Shown here piece after piece: positions 16,311 through 28,508 of a stretch of DNA of 64,000 bases (position 1 is the stretch's first letter; every line of letters starts with the position of its first letter). This DNA comes from Bacteroidota bacterium (GTDB lineage Bacteria; Bacteroidota; Bacteroidia; B-17B0; Aurantibacillaceae). A program made the position numbers and the translations under genes. Below the pieces are notes generated by a model. It had not been told where the DNA came from and ran no database searches. It saw only the letters and a list, made by a program, of their open reading frames with translations. The stretch is taken from NCBI GenBank assembly GCA_013288015.1, contig JABDCR010000004.1, forward strand, positions 21,087 to 85,086, given 5' to 3'.

Positions 16311-16340
16311 CCCCACCAAATAATCAGCTAAACCAATATT
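16311..16340. repeat. primase-3'-end repeat, copy R1 (short)
   Basis: CCCACCAAATAATCAGCTAAA is identical over about 18 bp to the end of the primase-like gene (CCACCAAATAATCAGCTAAATC at about 24844). The similarity then stops. It lies at the 3' end of the minus-strand gene at 16346. Confidence 0.6.
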
Positions 16341-20953: not shown

Positions 20954-21032
20954 GTCATTTCGAAAAGGAATGAATGAGAAATCTGTTTGTGAATCTACTT
21001 AGAAACGGATTTCTCCCGCTGGTCGAAATGAC
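20954..21032. repeat. REP/MITE-like palindrome (copy 2)
   Basis: GTCATTTCGA...GAGAAATCTG...CGGATTTCTCCCGCTGGTCGAAATGAC is an imperfect inverted repeat of the same family as 10148-10215. It abuts repeat R5. Confidence 0.75.
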
Positions 21033-21050
21033 AAGGAATTGAAAAGTTTA

Positions 21051-21774: not shown

Positions 21775-23901
21775 TTACTTCTTCAAAACCTTAATGCACA
21801 AATCATCAAAGTAGCAGGTTTTATTGCCAAAATAATACAAGCACATAACTGCATTACCTGTAAAATTTTTTGTTAAACGTACTTTCAATTGTATTTTTTT
21901 CCAACCCTTACCCAAATCTGCAACAACATCCTGACTTACTCTTTCAAAGCTTTTATCATTTTGCAGCGATAAAATAATGCCCCCTACTTCATCTTCGGCA
22001 AGTCTGTTTACGCTTATCTCAACTTCATCGCCCGGTTTAACTTCAAAATTTACCCCTCCTATATAAGCATGTTTATTATTTGCTTTTAAGGAAGTAGTTG
22101 CCGAAGTAAATTGCTCTTTACAACTTACAGTTAACCCATCGCAAGTGTTTAAACCATCAGCCGATACAAAACCTGATTTGTTTGGAGCAATTTTTTCGAA
22201 ATCAAAATTTATGGTTACCGTGTTGCTATAATGTGGTTTTGCCAAAGCGGTATCAATGTGTATTACATAAAATTCGTCTCCCGTTTCGGGAAAAGTGCGG
22301 GCAAGCTCTATGCTTTTTACGGCATATTTATAATCTACTGTAATGCTATCAAGTACGCTTTGTTTAAAGGCTTCATCTTTTCGCAAAAAGTTAACCAGCA
22401 CTTCTGGGTACTTTTCAAAAATATCTGCATGCGGTGTTTCTCTGTAAAAGCAAAATATTTTATTCGGTATTTTTTCGTACATAAAAGTAGTAGGGTATCT
22501 TTTGCGCACATACTGGCGGCCTTGTTCAAAACTATCGCCCCCATAAGCTATACCAAAATTAAGTGCCGATTCAACAAAGCAACTCTCTTCGTAACCTGTG
22601 GTCATTATTTTAGGCATATTGCCAAATTGCTTGGCCGCTCCTATACTCGATATGTATTGCGGATTTCCTTTGGCATAACTGGTACCATAAAATTGCAATT
22701 TATAAAGTAACAAGCCTGTACTTACTGTTAGCATTAGTACTGCAATAAGCTTGTTTAATTTAATTTGCGAAAAAGCAACCAAGCCTGCTAAAACTGCCGG
22801 AATAGTTACTGCCCTTGCCGGAATTAAATAATGAAAACTATAATGCTTGGCAGCCAGCATAATTTGTAAAACTATAACCAGCCAAAAAGCCAATGCCAGT
22901 TTATAAAAACTACTTTTCCATTTTTTGGTAAACAAACCAACTATTACCATAATAGAAAGCAGTATAAACCCGGTGGTAAAAAAATACTCGTCGGCAAAAA
23001 GTGTTTTTAGGTTTTTTATATATTCTACCTTATCAATAATTTGTTCTTTGCCGCTGCCATATTGCCCCGAGTGCGTTGCCATGCCAAAAAACCATTTATA
23101 CATGCCTTTAAAACTATTCCAAACCGGATATAGAATTAACAAAGCAAAAACCGCTAAACCAATTATGTATATGATAAATTTTTTAGGCTTTTCAATAAAA
23201 AACAAAGGCACCAGTATAAAAGGCACACAGGTTATTTTAGCTACAAACAAAGCGGCTGTTACAAAAGCCATAAACAAAATTGACTTAGTGCTAATAGTAT
23301 AGCCATCTATCTTACTTTTTTTATAGCTCAGCACCCATAAAAAAGCACAGTAATAGGGTAGTGTTAGTAGCATAATATATTCGGGACACACCCTGATAAA
23401 AAAATGAAAATTTAAGTAAGCGCTTATAGCTATAAGCTGAAAAAAGAAAGCCGTAATATAATTGCCCGTGTTTTTGGCAATAAGTTTGCCTGCGGCATAT
23501 ACAGTAAGCATTATTAAAGCAATACAAACAATGGCATCGGCACGTAAATAAAACTCGGGGCGGTTAATTACATCCTCAACTACATTGCCTTTACCCAAAA
23601 AAAGATGCGTAAAAAAAATAATAATGCCTGCCAACCAATGAGCCGTTGTGCCGGGGTTGTCGTAATGACCTAAATCTATATGTCCGTTGGCAATGTTGGT
23701 TCCGTTTATTAAATAGATGTAAGTAGAATCGGTATAGGTTGTAAAAAAGTTTACCCCCTGGTAGTAGTAAAGCCAAGCAAACACACCATAAACTACCGGC
23801 AGCAAAAAAAGCAGGAAACTATTTTTTTTAGTGTACGATATTGCCGCACCCCCTGTAAAAACTGATTTTAGAGCCAATGATAGGTTGTTTTCGCTTTCCA
23901 T
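21775..23901 (-). CDS. glycosyltransferase family 39-like membrane protein
   Basis: This 708-residue protein has about ten transmembrane segments across residues 25-410. An early acidic luminal loop precedes them, in the manner of PMT/ArnT-type transferases that move sugars from polyprenyl phosphate. The C-terminal about 190 residues form a predicted beta-sandwich (FDFEKIAPNKSGFVSADG, YYFGNKTCYFDDLCI) like a carbohydrate-binding module. The protein probably glycosylates an exported protein or lipid. The acceptor is unknown. It is upstream of the DtxR gene on the same strand with a 67-bp gap, so cotranscription is possible. Confidence 0.75.
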   Translation of the reverse strand: MESENNLSLALKSVFTGGAAISYTKKNSFLLFLLPVVYGVFAWLYYYQGVNFFTTYTDSTYIYLINGTNIANGHIDLGHYDNPGTTAHWLAGIIIFFTHLFLGKGNVVEDVINRPEFYLRADAIVCIALIMLTVYAAGKLIAKNTGNYITAFFFQLIAISAYLNFHFFIRVCPEYIMLLTLPYYCAFLWVLSYKKSKIDGYTISTKSILFMAFVTAALFVAKITCVPFILVPLFFIEKPKKFIIYIIGLAVFALLILYPVWNSFKGMYKWFFGMATHSGQYGSGKEQIIDKVEYIKNLKTLFADEYFFTTGFILLSIMVIVGLFTKKWKSSFYKLALAFWLVIVLQIMLAAKHYSFHYLIPARAVTIPAVLAGLVAFSQIKLNKLIAVLMLTVSTGLLLYKLQFYGTSYAKGNPQYISSIGAAKQFGNMPKIMTTGYEESCFVESALNFGIAYGGDSFEQGRQYVRKRYPTTFMYEKIPNKIFCFYRETPHADIFEKYPEVLVNFLRKDEAFKQSVLDSITVDYKYAVKSIELARTFPETGDEFYVIHIDTALAKPHYSNTVTINFDFEKIAPNKSGFVSADGLNTCDGLTVSCKEQFTSATTSLKANNKHAYIGGVNFEVKPGDEVEISVNRLAEDEVGGIILSLQNDKSFERVSQDVVADLGKGWKKIQLKVRLTKNFTGNAVMCLYYFGNKTCYFDDLCIKVLKK

Positions 23902-23973
23902 TTTTATAATAGCCGTTAAAGATACTTTTTTTTGCTATTCTACCACAACACGATTGAAGAGTAGCTGGTACAA

Positions 23974-24204
23974 GGTACAATTTTGTATACTATACTAAAC
24001 CTTGTACCACTTTATATAAATGACAAAACGTAATAAAATAGTGTTGAGGTTTGTTGTTGTCGCAAGGTTTCAAATCCAGCGGAGCGGGGGTACAATTTTG
24101 TATACTAAACTAAACCTTGTACCACTTTATATAAATGACAAAGCGTAATAAAATAATGTTGAGGTTTGTTGTTACCGCAGGATTTCAAATCCAGCGGAGC
24201 GGGG
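23974..24204. repeat. 115-bp tandem repeat, two copies
   Basis: Two almost identical 115-bp units (23974-24088, 24089-24204) run GGTACAATTTTGTATAC...TTGAGGTTTGTTGTT...TTTCAAATCCAGCGGAGCGGG. A third partial unit is at 27956-28024. The first unit also has a hairpin: GGTACAAGGT pairs with ACCTTGTACC (23968-24008). All three copies end 5-27 bp before the stop codon of a minus-strand exported-protein gene. Confidence 0.85.
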
Positions 24205-24230
24205 AACAACAAAGGTAGAGTGGTTATAAT

Positions 24231-24794
24231 TTACTTCTCAAAATCCACACGCCAACCTTTTACACTCTTTTTATAATATCCATGTTGAAAAAGCTTATGG
24301 TCATATCCAAACAATTCATAATAAAATGTTCCATCAATATTATTAAACATTTTTGTATAATCTAATATTTCCTCCATTGAACATATCCCATTCTTGTCCC
24401 ACCTGAAAGCTTTTATTAAGACAGGTCTACCGTTTTGGTATAATTCTTCATAAGATGGGTTTCCATTCTTATATAAAAGTTTTAGAATTCCGTTAATTGG
24501 AGTTGGGTTACCTCTTTGAGATGTAATGCCACTATATTTAATAATATATTTTTTTGGTCTGGGATGTTTCGAGAAAGGATAAACACATTCACCAACATTG
24601 TCATACAATTCATATCCTATATAGAAGGCATTTTTCTTGTCTACTTTATTTGCGTATTCGTTAAGATAGACTTGCCAAAAACCAATTTTCTTATGCTTGT
24701 CATTATATTTATTAATTGTGTCAGAAAGATTCTGCGAAAAAAGATTGCTAATTGTAAGAAAAAGGGTGAGTATAAAAAATTGTCTGATTTTCAT
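24231..24794 (-). CDS. exported MORN-like/YwqK-type protein
   Basis: This 187-residue protein has a signal peptide (KIRQFFILTLFLTISNLFSQ). The mature part has 'KKIGFWQVYL', 'GNPTPINGILKLLYKNGNPSYEELYQNGRPVLIKAFRWDKNG', which resembles the MORN-repeat variants of YwqK-like proteins. These are usually exported and of unknown role. It is framed by repeats: the tandem repeat beyond its 3' end, and the primase stop region 17-40 bp before its start. The gene may be cargo attached to that primase end. Confidence 0.6.
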   Translation of the reverse strand: MKIRQFFILTLFLTISNLFSQNLSDTINKYNDKHKKIGFWQVYLNEYANKVDKKNAFYIGYELYDNVGECVYPFSKHPRPKKYIIKYSGITSQRGNPTPINGILKLLYKNGNPSYEELYQNGRPVLIKAFRWDKNGICSMEEILDYTKMFNNIDGTFYYELFGYDHKLFQHGYYKKSVKGWRVDFEK

Positions 24795-24832
24795 AAATTA
24801 TTATCGCTAACCCATTTATATGTTTGATAAAA

Positions 24833-25744
24833 TTACATAAAAGCCACCAAATAATCAGCTAAATCTAAGCCTTGTTGTTTTTCGGTTTCGGTGGCGTTGT
24901 GTTGTAATAAGTTTGATACGCTAATTTCGCAAATAGCTGATAGCTCTTTTGCTTTGGCGTTCCATTTTTCAAAGGCGTTTAAATCGGGGTAGAGGGTAAC
25001 CGTTTTACCTTTTAGCACGCTGCATTTTTTCAGCGTTAAATTGCTGAGGCTGCCAACGGCCAGCCAAATAAAATCAGGTAAATAAACACTGGCTATTAAG
25101 GCTGTTTTTTCGCTTTCTACCAGGGCAACTTGTTGGTTGTTGTGGGCTAACAAATGCTCGCCAAACAAACATTGCCGTAAATTAAAATGTGTCTGTCCAA
25201 TTGTTTTGTGCGCCCAGTGTATGTGGTTGTAGGGTTGCTTAACCCGCTTGCCTGTTATGGGGTTGTACAGCATGAGTTTGCCTGTATGTATTTTACCCAA
25301 GGCATCTACCTGCCAAAAAACAGTGGTACCCTGCCAGTATTTAGCTGTGCCAATGTAATATTTGTGTACTAATTTTTGTACCACATCAGCATTAAACAAG
25401 CTGCTTAAAAATTGCACAAAATGGTTGTTGCTGTATTGCTTTAGGCTGGCTGCAAAAACACTCTCAGGAATATACGATATGGCTTGTTGTGTAAGTGAAG
25501 TAGGAGGGGTGCAATAAATGGGTTTGGTATATGCTAAATTATTATCAATAAAATATTGTTTGGGTGTGTAGTGGTAGCCGCATTTGCTAAGGCGGTTACA
25601 TATGCCTACGGTGTGGTGTAAGGGCTGATTGGTTTCTGTATCAATGTAAAGAGTAAAGGTTTTATCCCTCTTTTTACATGCCGGACAAACAAACCGTGTG
25701 CTCATGCCCTTATAAGGTTGTAATATATATGGGTAGGTTTTCAT
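24833..25744 (-). CDS. primase-like protein (DUF6371-like), mobile-element replication
   Basis: This 303-residue protein has an N-terminal zinc ribbon, CPACKKRD...C...CGYH at about residues 20-52. A toprim-like region follows (VALVESEKTALIASVYLP; 'LTLKKCSVLKGKTVTLYPDLNAFEKW' at about 235-260). Such proteins prime replication of Bacteroidota plasmids and integrative elements. It is 318 bp downstream of a RepA-like ATPase gene on the same strand, with an iteron-like inverted repeat between them. Its 3' end (QQGLDLADYLVAFM) is the source sequence of the repeats scattered at 16.3-28 kb. The exact catalytic residues could not be verified. Confidence 0.65.
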   Translation of the reverse strand: MKTYPYILQPYKGMSTRFVCPACKKRDKTFTLYIDTETNQPLHHTVGICNRLSKCGYHYTPKQYFIDNNLAYTKPIYCTPPTSLTQQAISYIPESVFAASLKQYSNNHFVQFLSSLFNADVVQKLVHKYYIGTAKYWQGTTVFWQVDALGKIHTGKLMLYNPITGKRVKQPYNHIHWAHKTIGQTHFNLRQCLFGEHLLAHNNQQVALVESEKTALIASVYLPDFIWLAVGSLSNLTLKKCSVLKGKTVTLYPDLNAFEKWNAKAKELSAICEISVSNLLQHNATETEKQQGLDLADYLVAFM

Positions 25745-25775
25745 TTAATACATTTTGTCACTTCGCTTGTGTGTT

Positions 25776-25901
25776 GTCATTTCGACCAGCGGGAGAAATC
25801 CGTTTCAAACAGATTTCTCAGGCTCGCCCTACAAGCTGGCTCTTCACTAAAAATATCCACAGGATATTTTCTTTACGTTCAGCCCTCTCCTTCGAAATGA
25901 C
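25776..25901. repeat. REP/MITE-like palindrome (copy 3, long)
   Basis: GTCATTTCGACCAGCGGGAGAAATCC...AGATTTCTCAGGCTCGCCC...TCGAAATGAC has the ends of the 10148-10215 family, enlarged by a central insert of about 50 bp. Its left flank CTTGTGTGTTGTCATTTCG is the reverse complement of the right flank of copy 1. Confidence 0.75.
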
Positions 25902-25925
25902 AAGCGCTGTTTTCATTTATAAAAA

Positions 25926-26071
25926 GTGGTGTAACAAAAAATATACATAGGGCTTTTGTTGTTATTACACCACTATTTAAATTATTATTATTATTTATTT
26001 GTACTAATATATTACTGGGTAAAGTGGTGTAATAATAACAAAGGGCATAGCAAATTAACTTGTTACACCAC
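25926..26071. other. iteron-like nested inverted repeat, candidate replication origin
   Basis: GTGGTGTAACAA (25926-25937) and GTGGTGTAATAA (26024-26035) pair with inverted copies TTATTACACCAC (25962-25973) and TTGTTACACCAC (26060-26071). The inner arms extend to about 28 bp (AGGGCTTTTGTTGTTATTACACCACT against its near-complement). Between them lies a 47-bp AT-rich tract (TATTTAAATTATTATTATTATT). The element sits between genes for a RepA-like ATPase and a primase, the usual place for an origin of a plasmid-like element. It could instead act as a terminator or att site. Confidence 0.55.
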
Positions 26072-27160
26072 ATTTGATTCATTATTAATTCTCCAACGTT
26101 TATCTACATCCTGTATAATCATTTTATAATCTTTCATGTCAGTAAATAAATTTTTTGAGGTGGACTTACTTTTTTGGGTTTGGTCCATTATTTTGAAAAT
26201 CGCATCGTGATACGTTAACGATGTTTGTCCGCCAAAAACTTGCTGGCAAATAATTTTGATAGAGTTTAAGCGGGTTTCGTTTTTATCCTCGCTTACACTG
26301 CGTATGCCGCAACCCACATGGTAGCCTTTATCTTTATCGTACATAAATTGTATGGCCGGTATATTGGCTTTGCCTGCCATGCGCAATAGCTTGGGCTCTA
26401 TAAACGAAATGTTGCCTTCGGTTTTAACCATCAGTAAACTTTCGCATTTACGCTGACACTGACTGCCTAAATGCCCTCGCTCTTTATCAGTACCCGGGTT
26501 GGTGTGCACTATTACTATAATGGGCATGTGATATTTTACGGCCAGCTCTTCAAAAAATTTTACAATAACCATGCTTTGTTCGGCATCGTTTACATCTTTT
26601 ATAAAATCGGCAATGCCATCAATTACCAGTAGGTGTATGCCGCCAAATTGTTGCAGGGCGCCTTCGCAAATGTCGCTGGTCATTTGCGCATATGTGGCAA
26701 TTTCAAGCTGACGTATGTTGTAGGATAATAAATAATCGCAGCCACTCATATTGGCACGCCGCAAAACCGACATAATATTTTTTAAGTGCTTGTGCTTTGC
26801 CTGTTCGGTATCCATGTGTATAACGGCTTTTTTATGTATGTTGGGTTGCACGTTTACAAACTCAAGTCCGTCAATTAAACCATCGGGGCTAATGGCACCT
26901 GCCATAAGGATACTTGTAAAAGCACTCTTACCGCTTTTGCTGGCGCCGCTAATGGTGGTTAGGTTGCCCTCGGTACTAATAATTTCATCGTTAATGGTTA
27001 TAACGGGCACAGGCTCGGCAATTTGCGAGTGCTCGCTTATGCGGTGCACTTCGTACACATCAAGCATGTTGGGGTTACGTAATTTATAAAGATGGCGCAT
27101 GGCATCTTCTTGTATATCCTTCAGCGTAATTTTTGGGTTTAGTGGTGGTACGTCTTTCAT
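26063..27160 (-). CDS. RepA-like RecA-fold ATPase (AAA_25), replication helicase
   Basis: The ATG at 27160 (MKDVPPLNPKITL) is preferred over the TTG at 27187, giving 365 residues. The core has Walker A ISGASKSGKSAFTS (about 78-91) and Walker B HLLVIDGIADF (about 172-182), with downstream DAEQSMVIVKFFEELA. The C-terminal helices probably bind partners or DNA. The RecA-like architecture is that of RepA/AAA_25 helicases of Bacteroidota plasmids and mobilisable elements. It faces the iteron-like repeat and precedes the primase-like gene on the same strand. No integrase or mobilisation gene was found in the window. Confidence 0.75.
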   Translation of the reverse strand: MKDVPPLNPKITLKDIQEDAMRHLYKLRNPNMLDVYEVHRISEHSQIAEPVPVITINDEIISTEGNLTTISGASKSGKSAFTSILMAGAISPDGLIDGLEFVNVQPNIHKKAVIHMDTEQAKHKHLKNIMSVLRRANMSGCDYLLSYNIRQLEIATYAQMTSDICEGALQQFGGIHLLVIDGIADFIKDVNDAEQSMVIVKFFEELAVKYHMPIIVIVHTNPGTDKERGHLGSQCQRKCESLLMVKTEGNISFIEPKLLRMAGKANIPAIQFMYDKDKGYHVGCGIRSVSEDKNETRLNSIKIICQQVFGGQTSLTYHDAIFKIMDQTQKSKSTSKNLFTDMKDYKMIIQDVDKRWRINNESNVV

Positions 27161-27359
27161 GGTTTTATAATTTTTACGAAAGTACAAAAGGTGTGGAATA
27201 ATACATTCTTTAAAACTGCCGTAAAGCCCTGTATGGCTGTACTGACGCTGTAATAAGTGTGTAATAATATATGAGAATCAGCTTATTGAAAATAAAAACA
27301 AGCCTGTGAATAGAAATATTTTGTTGGTAAGTTTTTGTTTTGTCTTTAGCCGGTGCGTT

Positions 27360-27446
27360 GTCATTTCGACCGCAGGGAGAAATCTGTATTTGGTATTAGA
27401 TTGTTTGCAAATAAAGATTTCTCGGTCGTTCCTTCTTCGAAATGAT
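27360..27446. repeat. REP/MITE-like palindrome (copy 4)
   Basis: GTCATTTCGACCGCAGGGAGAAATCT...AGATTTCTCGGTCG..TTCTTCGAAATGAT is a further copy. The ORF track runs a longer ORF (27306) through it, which explains the non-protein-like N-terminus there. A fragment of the same family also lies at 27928-27961. Nothing else of note was seen in the gene-free stretch 27161-27503. Confidence 0.75.
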
Positions 27447-27503
27447 TTTATTTTTGGTATTTTTAATTTATCTTTGATAACCCAAAATAATGGGCAATCA
27501 ATT

Positions 27504-27908
27504 ATGACAACAGGGAAAGAATTAGCAAATAGGCTTCTTGAAGACATTAATAAATCTGTAGCAATAAGACAAAAAGTTCAAGACCCATTTACTCAAGTAA
27601 GAAACATAGGCATAAGTGGACAAGCGGACTTAAGTGGCTTTATGTCCTCCTTAAATGTTTTAAGTTTTGATGGACACTTAGACATTCTTTCTCAATTCAT
27701 TAATTTTCATAAACGATTGGTTAATCACGATAAAGGGACTAAAGTTGATATTGCTGTTTGGCAAAAAGATGTTCAAAATAATCTTGATGAGATTGCACAT
27801 ACTTTCCAAGAAATTATCTCAAGTGACACGGAAGACGTTTTCACAGAAACTAAATTTTCTGAATTCTTAATTGAACAGTTGGGTTATCTACATGACGACG
27901 CTAATTAA
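27504..27908 (+). CDS. small helical cytosolic protein, unknown (134 aa)
   Basis: The ORF track starts at 27306, but its first 66 residues are translation of a REP element. The ATG at 27504 (MTTGKELANRLLEDINKSV) gives a natural start. The protein is mostly helical and acidic near its end, with 'TQVRNIGISGQADLSGFMSSLNVLSFDGHLDILSQFINFHKRLV'. No family, signal peptide or zinc site was recognised. It stands alone between repeats and its stop overlaps the start of repeat R7. It might be an unrecognised accessory gene. Confidence 0.5.
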   Translation: MTTGKELANRLLEDINKSVAIRQKVQDPFTQVRNIGISGQADLSGFMSSLNVLSFDGHLDILSQFINFHKRLVNHDKGTKVDIAVWQKDVQNNLDEIAHTFQEIISSDTEDVFTETKFSEFLIEQLGYLHDDAN

Positions 27909-28024
27909 ATAATCAGCTAAATCTAATGGAAATACAGATTTCTCCCTCCGGTCGAAATGACAAAGCGTAATAAAATAGTGTTGAGGTTTGTTGTTGCATG
28001 GTTTCAAATCCAACGGAGCAGGCG
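27904..28024. repeat. composite repeat: R7 + REP fragment + third tandem unit
   Basis: Three known repeats lie in series. AATAATCAGCTAAATCTAA (R7, 27908-27926) matches the primase 3' end. CAGATTTCTCCC..GGTCGAAATGAC (27935-27961) is a REP half. TGACAAAGCGTAATAAAATAGTGTTGAGGTTTGTTGTT to GGAGC (27958-28020) is a partial copy of the 115-bp unit. Confidence 0.7.
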
Positions 28025-28028
28025 GTAG

Positions 28029-28508
28029 TTAGTTCTGAAAATTTGGATCCCACCATTCTATTTTATTAATAATCCATTTGTTTTTAACGGGGTCCAGTTT
28101 TATATGAATTTTAATTGGGTCGGAATTGCCATGATATAATTGAGGCCTACTTACATATCCTTTATATGTGGCTCGCTGATAGAGTACTTCAATTGTTTTT
28201 TCTATTTTGTTTTTTTTTGATGACTTAATTTCATAGAAAAAACACATCTCTAAAGTAGTATCGTGTTTTAAAATTTTTAAAAACTCCTTCTCTGATTTAA
28301 TTGTATGATATTTTGCACAATTTATATTTACAGAACTATCTTTTGTTAATGCTGAACTATTTTCAATTTTAGCATAAACATCAAGGAAATTAATTTGTGC
28401 GTGCTTGCAATAAATAGAATCAAAAATAAAATCTGCATTAATTTTTTTTTGAGAGAAACAATATTGAACGAATATAAAAAGGACAATAAGAAATGTTATT
28501 TTCTTCAT
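28029..28508 (-). CDS. exported protein of unknown function (159 aa)
   Basis: The ORF track starts at 28556, but the ATG at 28508 (MKKITFLIVLFIFVQYCFSQ) gives a clean signal peptide. The mature part has 'INADFIFDSIYCKHAQINFLDVYAKIENS', a lysine-rich middle and 'IHIKLDPVKNKWIINKIEWWDPNFQ' at the end. This last pattern is like NTF2/lumazine-type binding proteins or small immunity proteins, but no family was recognised. It lies 52 bp downstream of icmF, on the same strand, with the repeat block beyond its 3' end. It is probably accessory cargo. Confidence 0.55.
   Translation of the reverse strand: MKKITFLIVLFIFVQYCFSQKKINADFIFDSIYCKHAQINFLDVYAKIENSSALTKDSSVNINCAKYHTIKSEKEFLKILKHDTTLEMCFFYEIKSSKKNKIEKTIEVLYQRATYKGYVSRPQLYHGNSDPIKIHIKLDPVKNKWIINKIEWWDPNFQN

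Follow-up and report, generated by a model that had tools for sequence, protein, structure and literature searches.

A palindromic repeat at the 3' end of a DnaB-like ATPase gene in a Bacteroidota genome: the putative replication origin of a degraded integrative element

Introduction

SaPI origins consist of two iteron sets around an AT-rich stretch. The C-terminal domain of SaPI Rep recognises this iteron origin, which is located directly downstream of rep, and the primase is encoded by the element itself (PMC7581432). Similarly, the C-terminal domain of SCCmec Cch2 binds an iteron-bearing putative origin in the gap that follows the helicase gene, and this binding is abolished by deletion of the direct repeats, but not of the inverted repeats (PMC7581432). 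In the integrative mobilizable element SGI1, an iteron oriV is found immediately downstream of rep (PMC7433901). Dispersed palindromes of the REP type, in turn, carry a GTAG/CGTC tag at the end of the palindrome (PMC3733652).

Here, we describe a palindromic repeat in a 64,000-nucleotide stretch of DNA from a Bacteroidota bacterium, referred to as the window. As in SaPIs, the repeats directly follow the gene of a putative initiator/helicase, an AT-rich segment is present and a primase belongs to the element; however, a RecA/DnaB-like AAA_25 ATPase takes the place of SaPI Rep, the primase is of the Zn_ribbon_16 + DUF6371 type, the host belongs to the Bacteroidota and the function is predicted from sequence; the likeness described here is one of plan. 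The locus shares with SCCmec Cch2 and CCPol-MP the helicase-primase module of an integrated element and the iterons after the helicase gene, while the primase types are unrelated. The putative origin immediately follows the ATPase gene, as that of SGI1 follows rep; SGI1, in contrast, uses a RepA_C initiator, 17-bp direct iterons and a DnaA box where the window has inverted palindromes and a helicase-like protein. Finally, REP/BIME elements and REPtrons resemble the present repeat family as dispersed intergenic inverted palindromes, some of them flanking a gene (as at the C61 copy described below), but the units studied here are about 50 bp long, lack the GTAG/CGTC tag, occur at low copy number and accompany a replicative-helicase-like gene where REPtrons have a RAYT transposase. 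Our comparative analysis suggests that a degraded integrative element most likely has its origin here, although this origin may have ceased to be active.

Results

The features of the locus are given below (positions in the window; a dot denotes no strand).

24833..25744, minus strand: primase-like protein (Zn_ribbon_16 + DUF6371), C-terminus shortened compared to most relatives
24849..24868, plus strand: 20-bp direct repeat at the primase 3' end, candidate element boundary
25774..25903, dot: dispersed TCATTTCGA...GAGAAATC palindromic repeat inside the ATPase-primase gap, a separate family
25926..25973, minus strand: palindromic unit 1, loop subtype A, AAAGCCCTATGTATATTT on the minus strand; arms GTGGTGTAA.../...TTACACCAC
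25974..26023, dot: AT-rich core (AT content 88%), sharing homology with the central spacers in the other arrays (TTTGTACTWAYCTATTAC)
26024..26071, plus strand: palindromic unit 2, loop subtype B, AAAGGGCATAGCAAATT; holds the ATPase stop codon 26063-26065
26063..27160, minus strand: RepA-like/DnaB-like AAA_25 ATPase, proposed initiator helicase; ORF extendable to 27187
27189..27203, plus strand: half-site-like GGTGTGGAATAATA upstream of the ATPase gene, possible operator
27256..27270, plus strand: second half-site-like GTGTGTAATAATA upstream of the ATPase gene, possible operator
27907..27926, plus strand: exact second copy of the 20-bp direct repeat, candidate for the opposite element boundary; a remnant of 3.06 kb would lie between the two

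A first-pass annotation of this DNA had described four copies of a 12-mer, two direct and two inverted, around an AT-rich core, and all four are present exactly where it had placed them. Exact copies of GTGGTGTAAYAA occupy positions 25926-25937 (+), 25962-25973 (-), 26024-26035 (+) and 26060-26071 (-) and are the only exact matches within the window; none arose by chance in 300 dinucleotide shuffles of the 4-kb region, and just two further exact copies exist genome-wide, next to many diverged units of the family. The copies delimit two 48-bp imperfect palindromes, mutually inverted, which flank the 50-bp core (88% AT compared to 64% for the window) and score 68.8 bits (unit 1, covariance model R1) and 64.4 bits (unit 2, covariance model). 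The last half-site includes the stop codon of the ATPase gene at 26063-26065 (...AAT GTG GTG TAA CAA... on the minus strand). The inverted-repeat arrangement at 25926-26071 is thereby confirmed as real and far beyond chance. Its description as an iteron-like nested inverted repeat is correct with regard to the inverted repeat; the units, however, are palindromic modules and not plain iterons. The weaker similar motifs that had been mentioned upstream of the ATPase gene were also recovered (about 27189-27203 and 27256-27270), and another copy of the gene, C43, has kept part of them.

As DNA, the two hairpins fold with z-scores of -4.1 and -2.3. A role solely as a terminator, considered beforehand as an explanation of the repeat, found no counterpart in the sequence, as the number of intrinsic terminators (a G+C-rich stem-loop followed by a T run) in 24700-28000 was zero. 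No Rfam family reached its gathering score in 23500-28500. Structure at the RNA level was rejected as the main reading: paired changes almost never proceed via G-U (5/390 cells), and the near absence of G-U intermediates is better explained by symmetry at the DNA level.

The ATPase matches AAA_25 and DnaB-like replicative helicase profiles. Its C-terminus is proposed to be an iteron reader of the winged-helix type; a search of this region against Pfam yielded no HTH match, AlphaFold2 models of the protein were of low confidence (mean pLDDT 33 for the single-sequence and 36 for the 7-row model) and a profile search of solved structures returned nothing. The domain composition of the left-hand gene product (Zn_ribbon_16 + DUF6371) is consistent with a primase, and the protein stops at ...GLDLADYLVAFM, where most relatives run on. 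The ATPase-primase gap measures 318 bp and is longer than the gaps of the relatives. None of the ORFs enclosed by the two 20-bp repeats (24849 and 27907) encodes an integrase, and no relaxase was seen in the 3.06-kb remnant. The local element looks decayed, and the absence of an integrase together with the unrelated repeat within the gap renders present activity at the locus doubtful. The earlier proposal of an integrated or formerly replicating element has to be restricted in this respect, since what is left locally is a decayed-looking remnant without an integrase.

Homologues of the ATPase-primase pair were collected from whole genomes, viral contigs and a Taibaiella soli contig, Bacteroides-group plasmids being covered by search only, and the palindrome score of each gap was judged against dinucleotide shuffles. 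Among 32 non-redundant ATPase-primase gaps, the window included, an inverted repeat was significant at p<=0.05 in 27 and at p<=0.01 in 24, compared to 4/30 and 1/30, respectively, for same-strand control gaps from the same loci. In those relatives that have an ATPase gene ahead of the primase gene, the gap usually spans 54-180 bp and holds symmetric repeats, typically two to three copies per direction. These inverted iterons are usually specific to the element, with the first copy located at the ATPase stop codon, and the motifs include TGTAACA, TGTTCAC, CGTACT, CGTCCG, GTGGCATTT, AACTGCAA and others. The gap of locus L114, for example, contains CTGTAACAC three times and TGTTACA three times, that of L116 three copies each of GTGTTCACA and TGAACAC, that of L085 three copies of GTGGCATTT followed by its inverse, and that of L002 a 50-bp inverted repeat. 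In L016, an iteron holds the ATPase stop codon (CTG TAA CAA), as it does in the window. Thus, an absence of the repeat beside close homologues, which would have spoken against an origin, was not observed: nearly all of them possess inverted repeats, each with its own motif. The viral contigs yielded no relative of the window ATPase itself.

Pairs of a DUF6371 primase and an AAA_25 ATPase are widespread in mobile elements, plasmids and phage-like contigs of Bacteroidota, and a full-text search of an open-access library turned up a single paper with a mention of DUF6371; the comparison provides the pair with a testable function and points to the origin site of each element. At two loci (L002, L021), the primase relatives belong to elements with a phage-integrase-like ORF that adjoins the 3' end of trmE (mnmE). 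This gene end is the known SGI1 site in Gammaproteobacteria.

The ATPase C-terminus and the iteron motif were compared in a subset of 12 loci with a recognisable C-terminal HTH, which were picked after the sequences had been viewed; the C-terminus of L118 reaches the Pfam cut-offs for HTH_23 and Sigma70_r4_2, and others match more weakly. The recognition segment SHMKVSRLL/SHMKVSRIL coincides with TGTAACA (L016, L100, L114), S/A-x-G-x-VNKY with TGTTCAC (L099, L111, L116, L119), SEGAVRKW with CGTAC (L113, L118) and SHQKADRL with CGTCCG (L090, L106). Repeated 6-mers are shared within each of the 11 most similar HTH pairs; the next 11 pairs have almost none in common. With the similarity of the ATPase core controlled, motif and HTH show a partial rank correlation of 0.53 across the 12 loci (permutation p=0.0002), and L114 and L119, with a core similarity of 0.86 and an HTH similarity of 0.38, share no motif. 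When the 34 loci are taken together, whatever their C-terminal type, the coupling between motif and C-terminus is non-significant (r=0.05, p=0.12, core similarity controlled), and the claim is therefore limited to the HTH subset. Two loci of another C-terminal type, L018 and L108, have the motif GGTTTA in common. Within the HTH subset, these data point to an initiator helicase whose C-terminus would read an origin located where its own gene ends. They suggest that HTH type and iteron motif form a readable match, which would help to foresee which elements are incompatible and which act as helpers for others.

The window ATPase has few close homologues, namely a second copy in the same genome (C61, 70% identical), a fragment at a contig end of this genome (C43, 83% over 109 residues) and a relative in G286 (47-49%). 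In C61, a palindromic unit, GGGGGGTGGAATAAAGGGGTATAGGAAATTGTACCACCCTACC, starts a few bases past the ATPase stop codon (p=0.15 in an ungapped palindrome test), and two more units reside upstream of the gene, one of them a near-exact inverse of the downstream unit; the upstream palindrome is significant as a DNA fold (z=-8.1). The C61 palindromes on both sides of the gene are worded differently from those of the window, and in G286 the ATPase stop codon lies inside one of several GGTATAA repeats. The half-sites are therefore related yet distinct, with GTGGTGTAAYAA in the window, GGGTGGWAYAA in C61 and GGTATAA in G286, and the loop core CCCTAT of the window hairpins occurs again in both C61 and G286. 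The 3' end is visible for two ATPase genes of this genome, and each of them has a unit at its stop codon, although only about 33 units were detected in 2.47 Mb. The distinct units at the C61 and G286 ATPase genes make a chance insertion beside the window ATPase gene unlikely.

The same unit family also forms five arrays elsewhere in this genome (C1, C16, C18, C27, C49), none of which has a rep gene nearby and most of which lie beside ordinary genes, and one array in the sister species G062 at a position orthologous to C49. The covariance model identified 32 matches in this genome, a few of which represent one unit on both strands, five in G062 and only two weak single matches among the remaining 85 genomes of the order. 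Diverged stems of different motif could not be aligned with one another. The arms covary strongly, with 45 double-changed cells compared to 18.8+-3.5 after shuffling (0/500 shuffles). All seven arrays show a fixed polarity, left units on the minus and right units on the plus strand, with loop subtypes A and B on opposite sides and a conserved central spacer; about five of the arrays are independent, as C16 and C18 are mutual copies and C49 and the G062 array are orthologous. The seven-unit arrays at C18 (L061) and C16 (L059) reside in unrelated places and have the same unit order, indicating that a whole array was copied within the genome. At the C27 and C18 sites the array is absent in G062, which fits a gain in this genome or a loss in G062. 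A lone hairpin in G062 (C40; L063 4790-4870) combines a B-type loop with an unrelated stem (GGTGTCCAAGTCCAAAGGGTATACTAAATTGGACTGGAGACC) and directly adjoins a primase-tail fragment; it thereby ties the hairpins to these elements a second time. The orphan arrays probably descend from such elements, either as relics of their origins or as non-autonomous derivatives.

Discussion

Taken together, it appears likely that the feature serves, or once served, a small integrative element as replication origin, with the AAA_25 ATPase as initiator helicase, an interpretation that gains strong comparative support from the ATPase-primase relatives. The C-terminal DNA-binding domain of the ATPase might bind the palindromic half-sites that start at its own stop codon, the helicase would assemble or be loaded on the AT-rich core beside them, and the opened strands would be primed by the product of the neighbouring primase gene; for the window, binding by its ATPase, strand opening and replication are steps that we infer from the comparison. 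The long gap with its second repeat and the five arrays of this genome without a rep gene count against this reading, as do the non-significant coupling across the 34 loci, the low-confidence models and missing Pfam HTH match of the window ATPase, the p value of 0.15 for the unit past the C61 stop codon and the lack of an integrase or relaxase in the remnant. The candidate origin put forward by the first-pass annotation is strengthened by the inverted repeats of homologues at the same position and by the motif-HTH coupling in the HTH subset; it has to be modified in that the unit family is not unique to the gene pair.

Alternatively, the palindromes might represent a dispersed REP- or MITE-like family of this species which came to lie between the two genes by accident and is unrelated to replication. 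The concentration of model matches in this genome (32, compared to five in the sister species and two weak single ones in 85 others), the ordinary genes next to most arrays and the two array sites that are empty in the sister species would all be in line with such a family. We nevertheless regard this as unlikely, as stop-codon units with differing stems are present at each of the two ATPase copies whose 3' end can be seen, homologous gene pairs of other genera have inverted repeats at the same place, and the unit ends read AGTG...CACT and not GTAG or CGTC as the end tags of REPs (PMC3733652). In addition, no match to a Y1/RAYT-type transposase (PF01797) was found in either array-bearing genome (G000, G062), and mobilisation by a RAYT was rejected on these grounds, which is a weak test as both are fragmented assemblies of 56-58% completeness. 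In a REPtron-like selfish system, the helicase-primase pair instead of a transposase would spread and amplify the arrays and match their arms. We consider such a system improbable as well; if it existed, the arrays without genes would be non-autonomous offspring, or chromosomal decoys that titrate the initiators of incoming elements. The arrays, with covarying arms and fixed polarity, constitute an unexplained repeat system whose link is to a replication gene and not to a transposase.

The position of the repeats within the operon and upstream of the primase gene, along with the half-site-like sequences upstream of the ATPase gene, would also suit an operator by which the ATPase C-terminus regulates its own operon, notably primase expression, without an origin being involved. 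However, the upstream sites alone would suffice for autoregulation, and the large symmetric iteron sets of the relatives are located after the ATPase gene, as is the SaPI origin downstream of rep (PMC7581432), which leaves a purely regulatory role quite improbable. Operator and origin roles are not mutually exclusive.

A pair of inverted hairpins next to a primase gene, conserved in the loop and variable in the stem, is, moreover, reminiscent of the single-strand initiation sites ssiA and ssiB of RSF1010, which are recognised by RepB'. The shared loop core CCCTAT and the folding z-scores of the hairpins would agree with sites read by the primase instead of duplex iterons bound by the ATPase, but motif variation among the relatives tracks the ATPase HTH, the iterons of many relatives are without a loop comparable to that of the window hairpins, and the window primase is, by its Pfam domains, not a relative of RSF1010 RepB', so that we deem this reading very improbable. 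Integron attC sites were rejected because it is the stem that varies and the units are not separated by cassettes.

With respect to the origin favoured here, primase-derived repeats nearby had been taken as further support; this did not hold, as these repeats show no origin function and resemble relics of attachment sites or accretion. The primase 3' end (AAATAATCAGCTAAATCTAA core) is present six times, at window positions 16318, 17015, 19829, 20879, 24849 and 27907, in one shared orientation and with unrelated genes between the copies. In most copies the left end is shared and falls on CCACC or close to it, and the right ends vary from 15 to ~150 bases; G062:C40 and C14:31549-31670 hold more copies. 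Elements that integrated repeatedly at a putative attachment site at the primase end may have left these copies behind as relics.

Further repeats were observed in the same region. At 23966-24210 of the window, a 115-bp unit occurs twice in tandem. It includes the hairpin TGGTACAAGG...CCTTGTACCA, to which a hairpin within the C27 array is related, together with the block AAATGACAAARCGTAATAAAATA, which is found again at about 27955-27996. The TCATTTCGACC...GGGAGAAATC palindromic repeat is present at 25774-25903, 27358-27423, 20976-21034 and 27919-27966 of the window, is dispersed in this genome and flanks several of the arrays.
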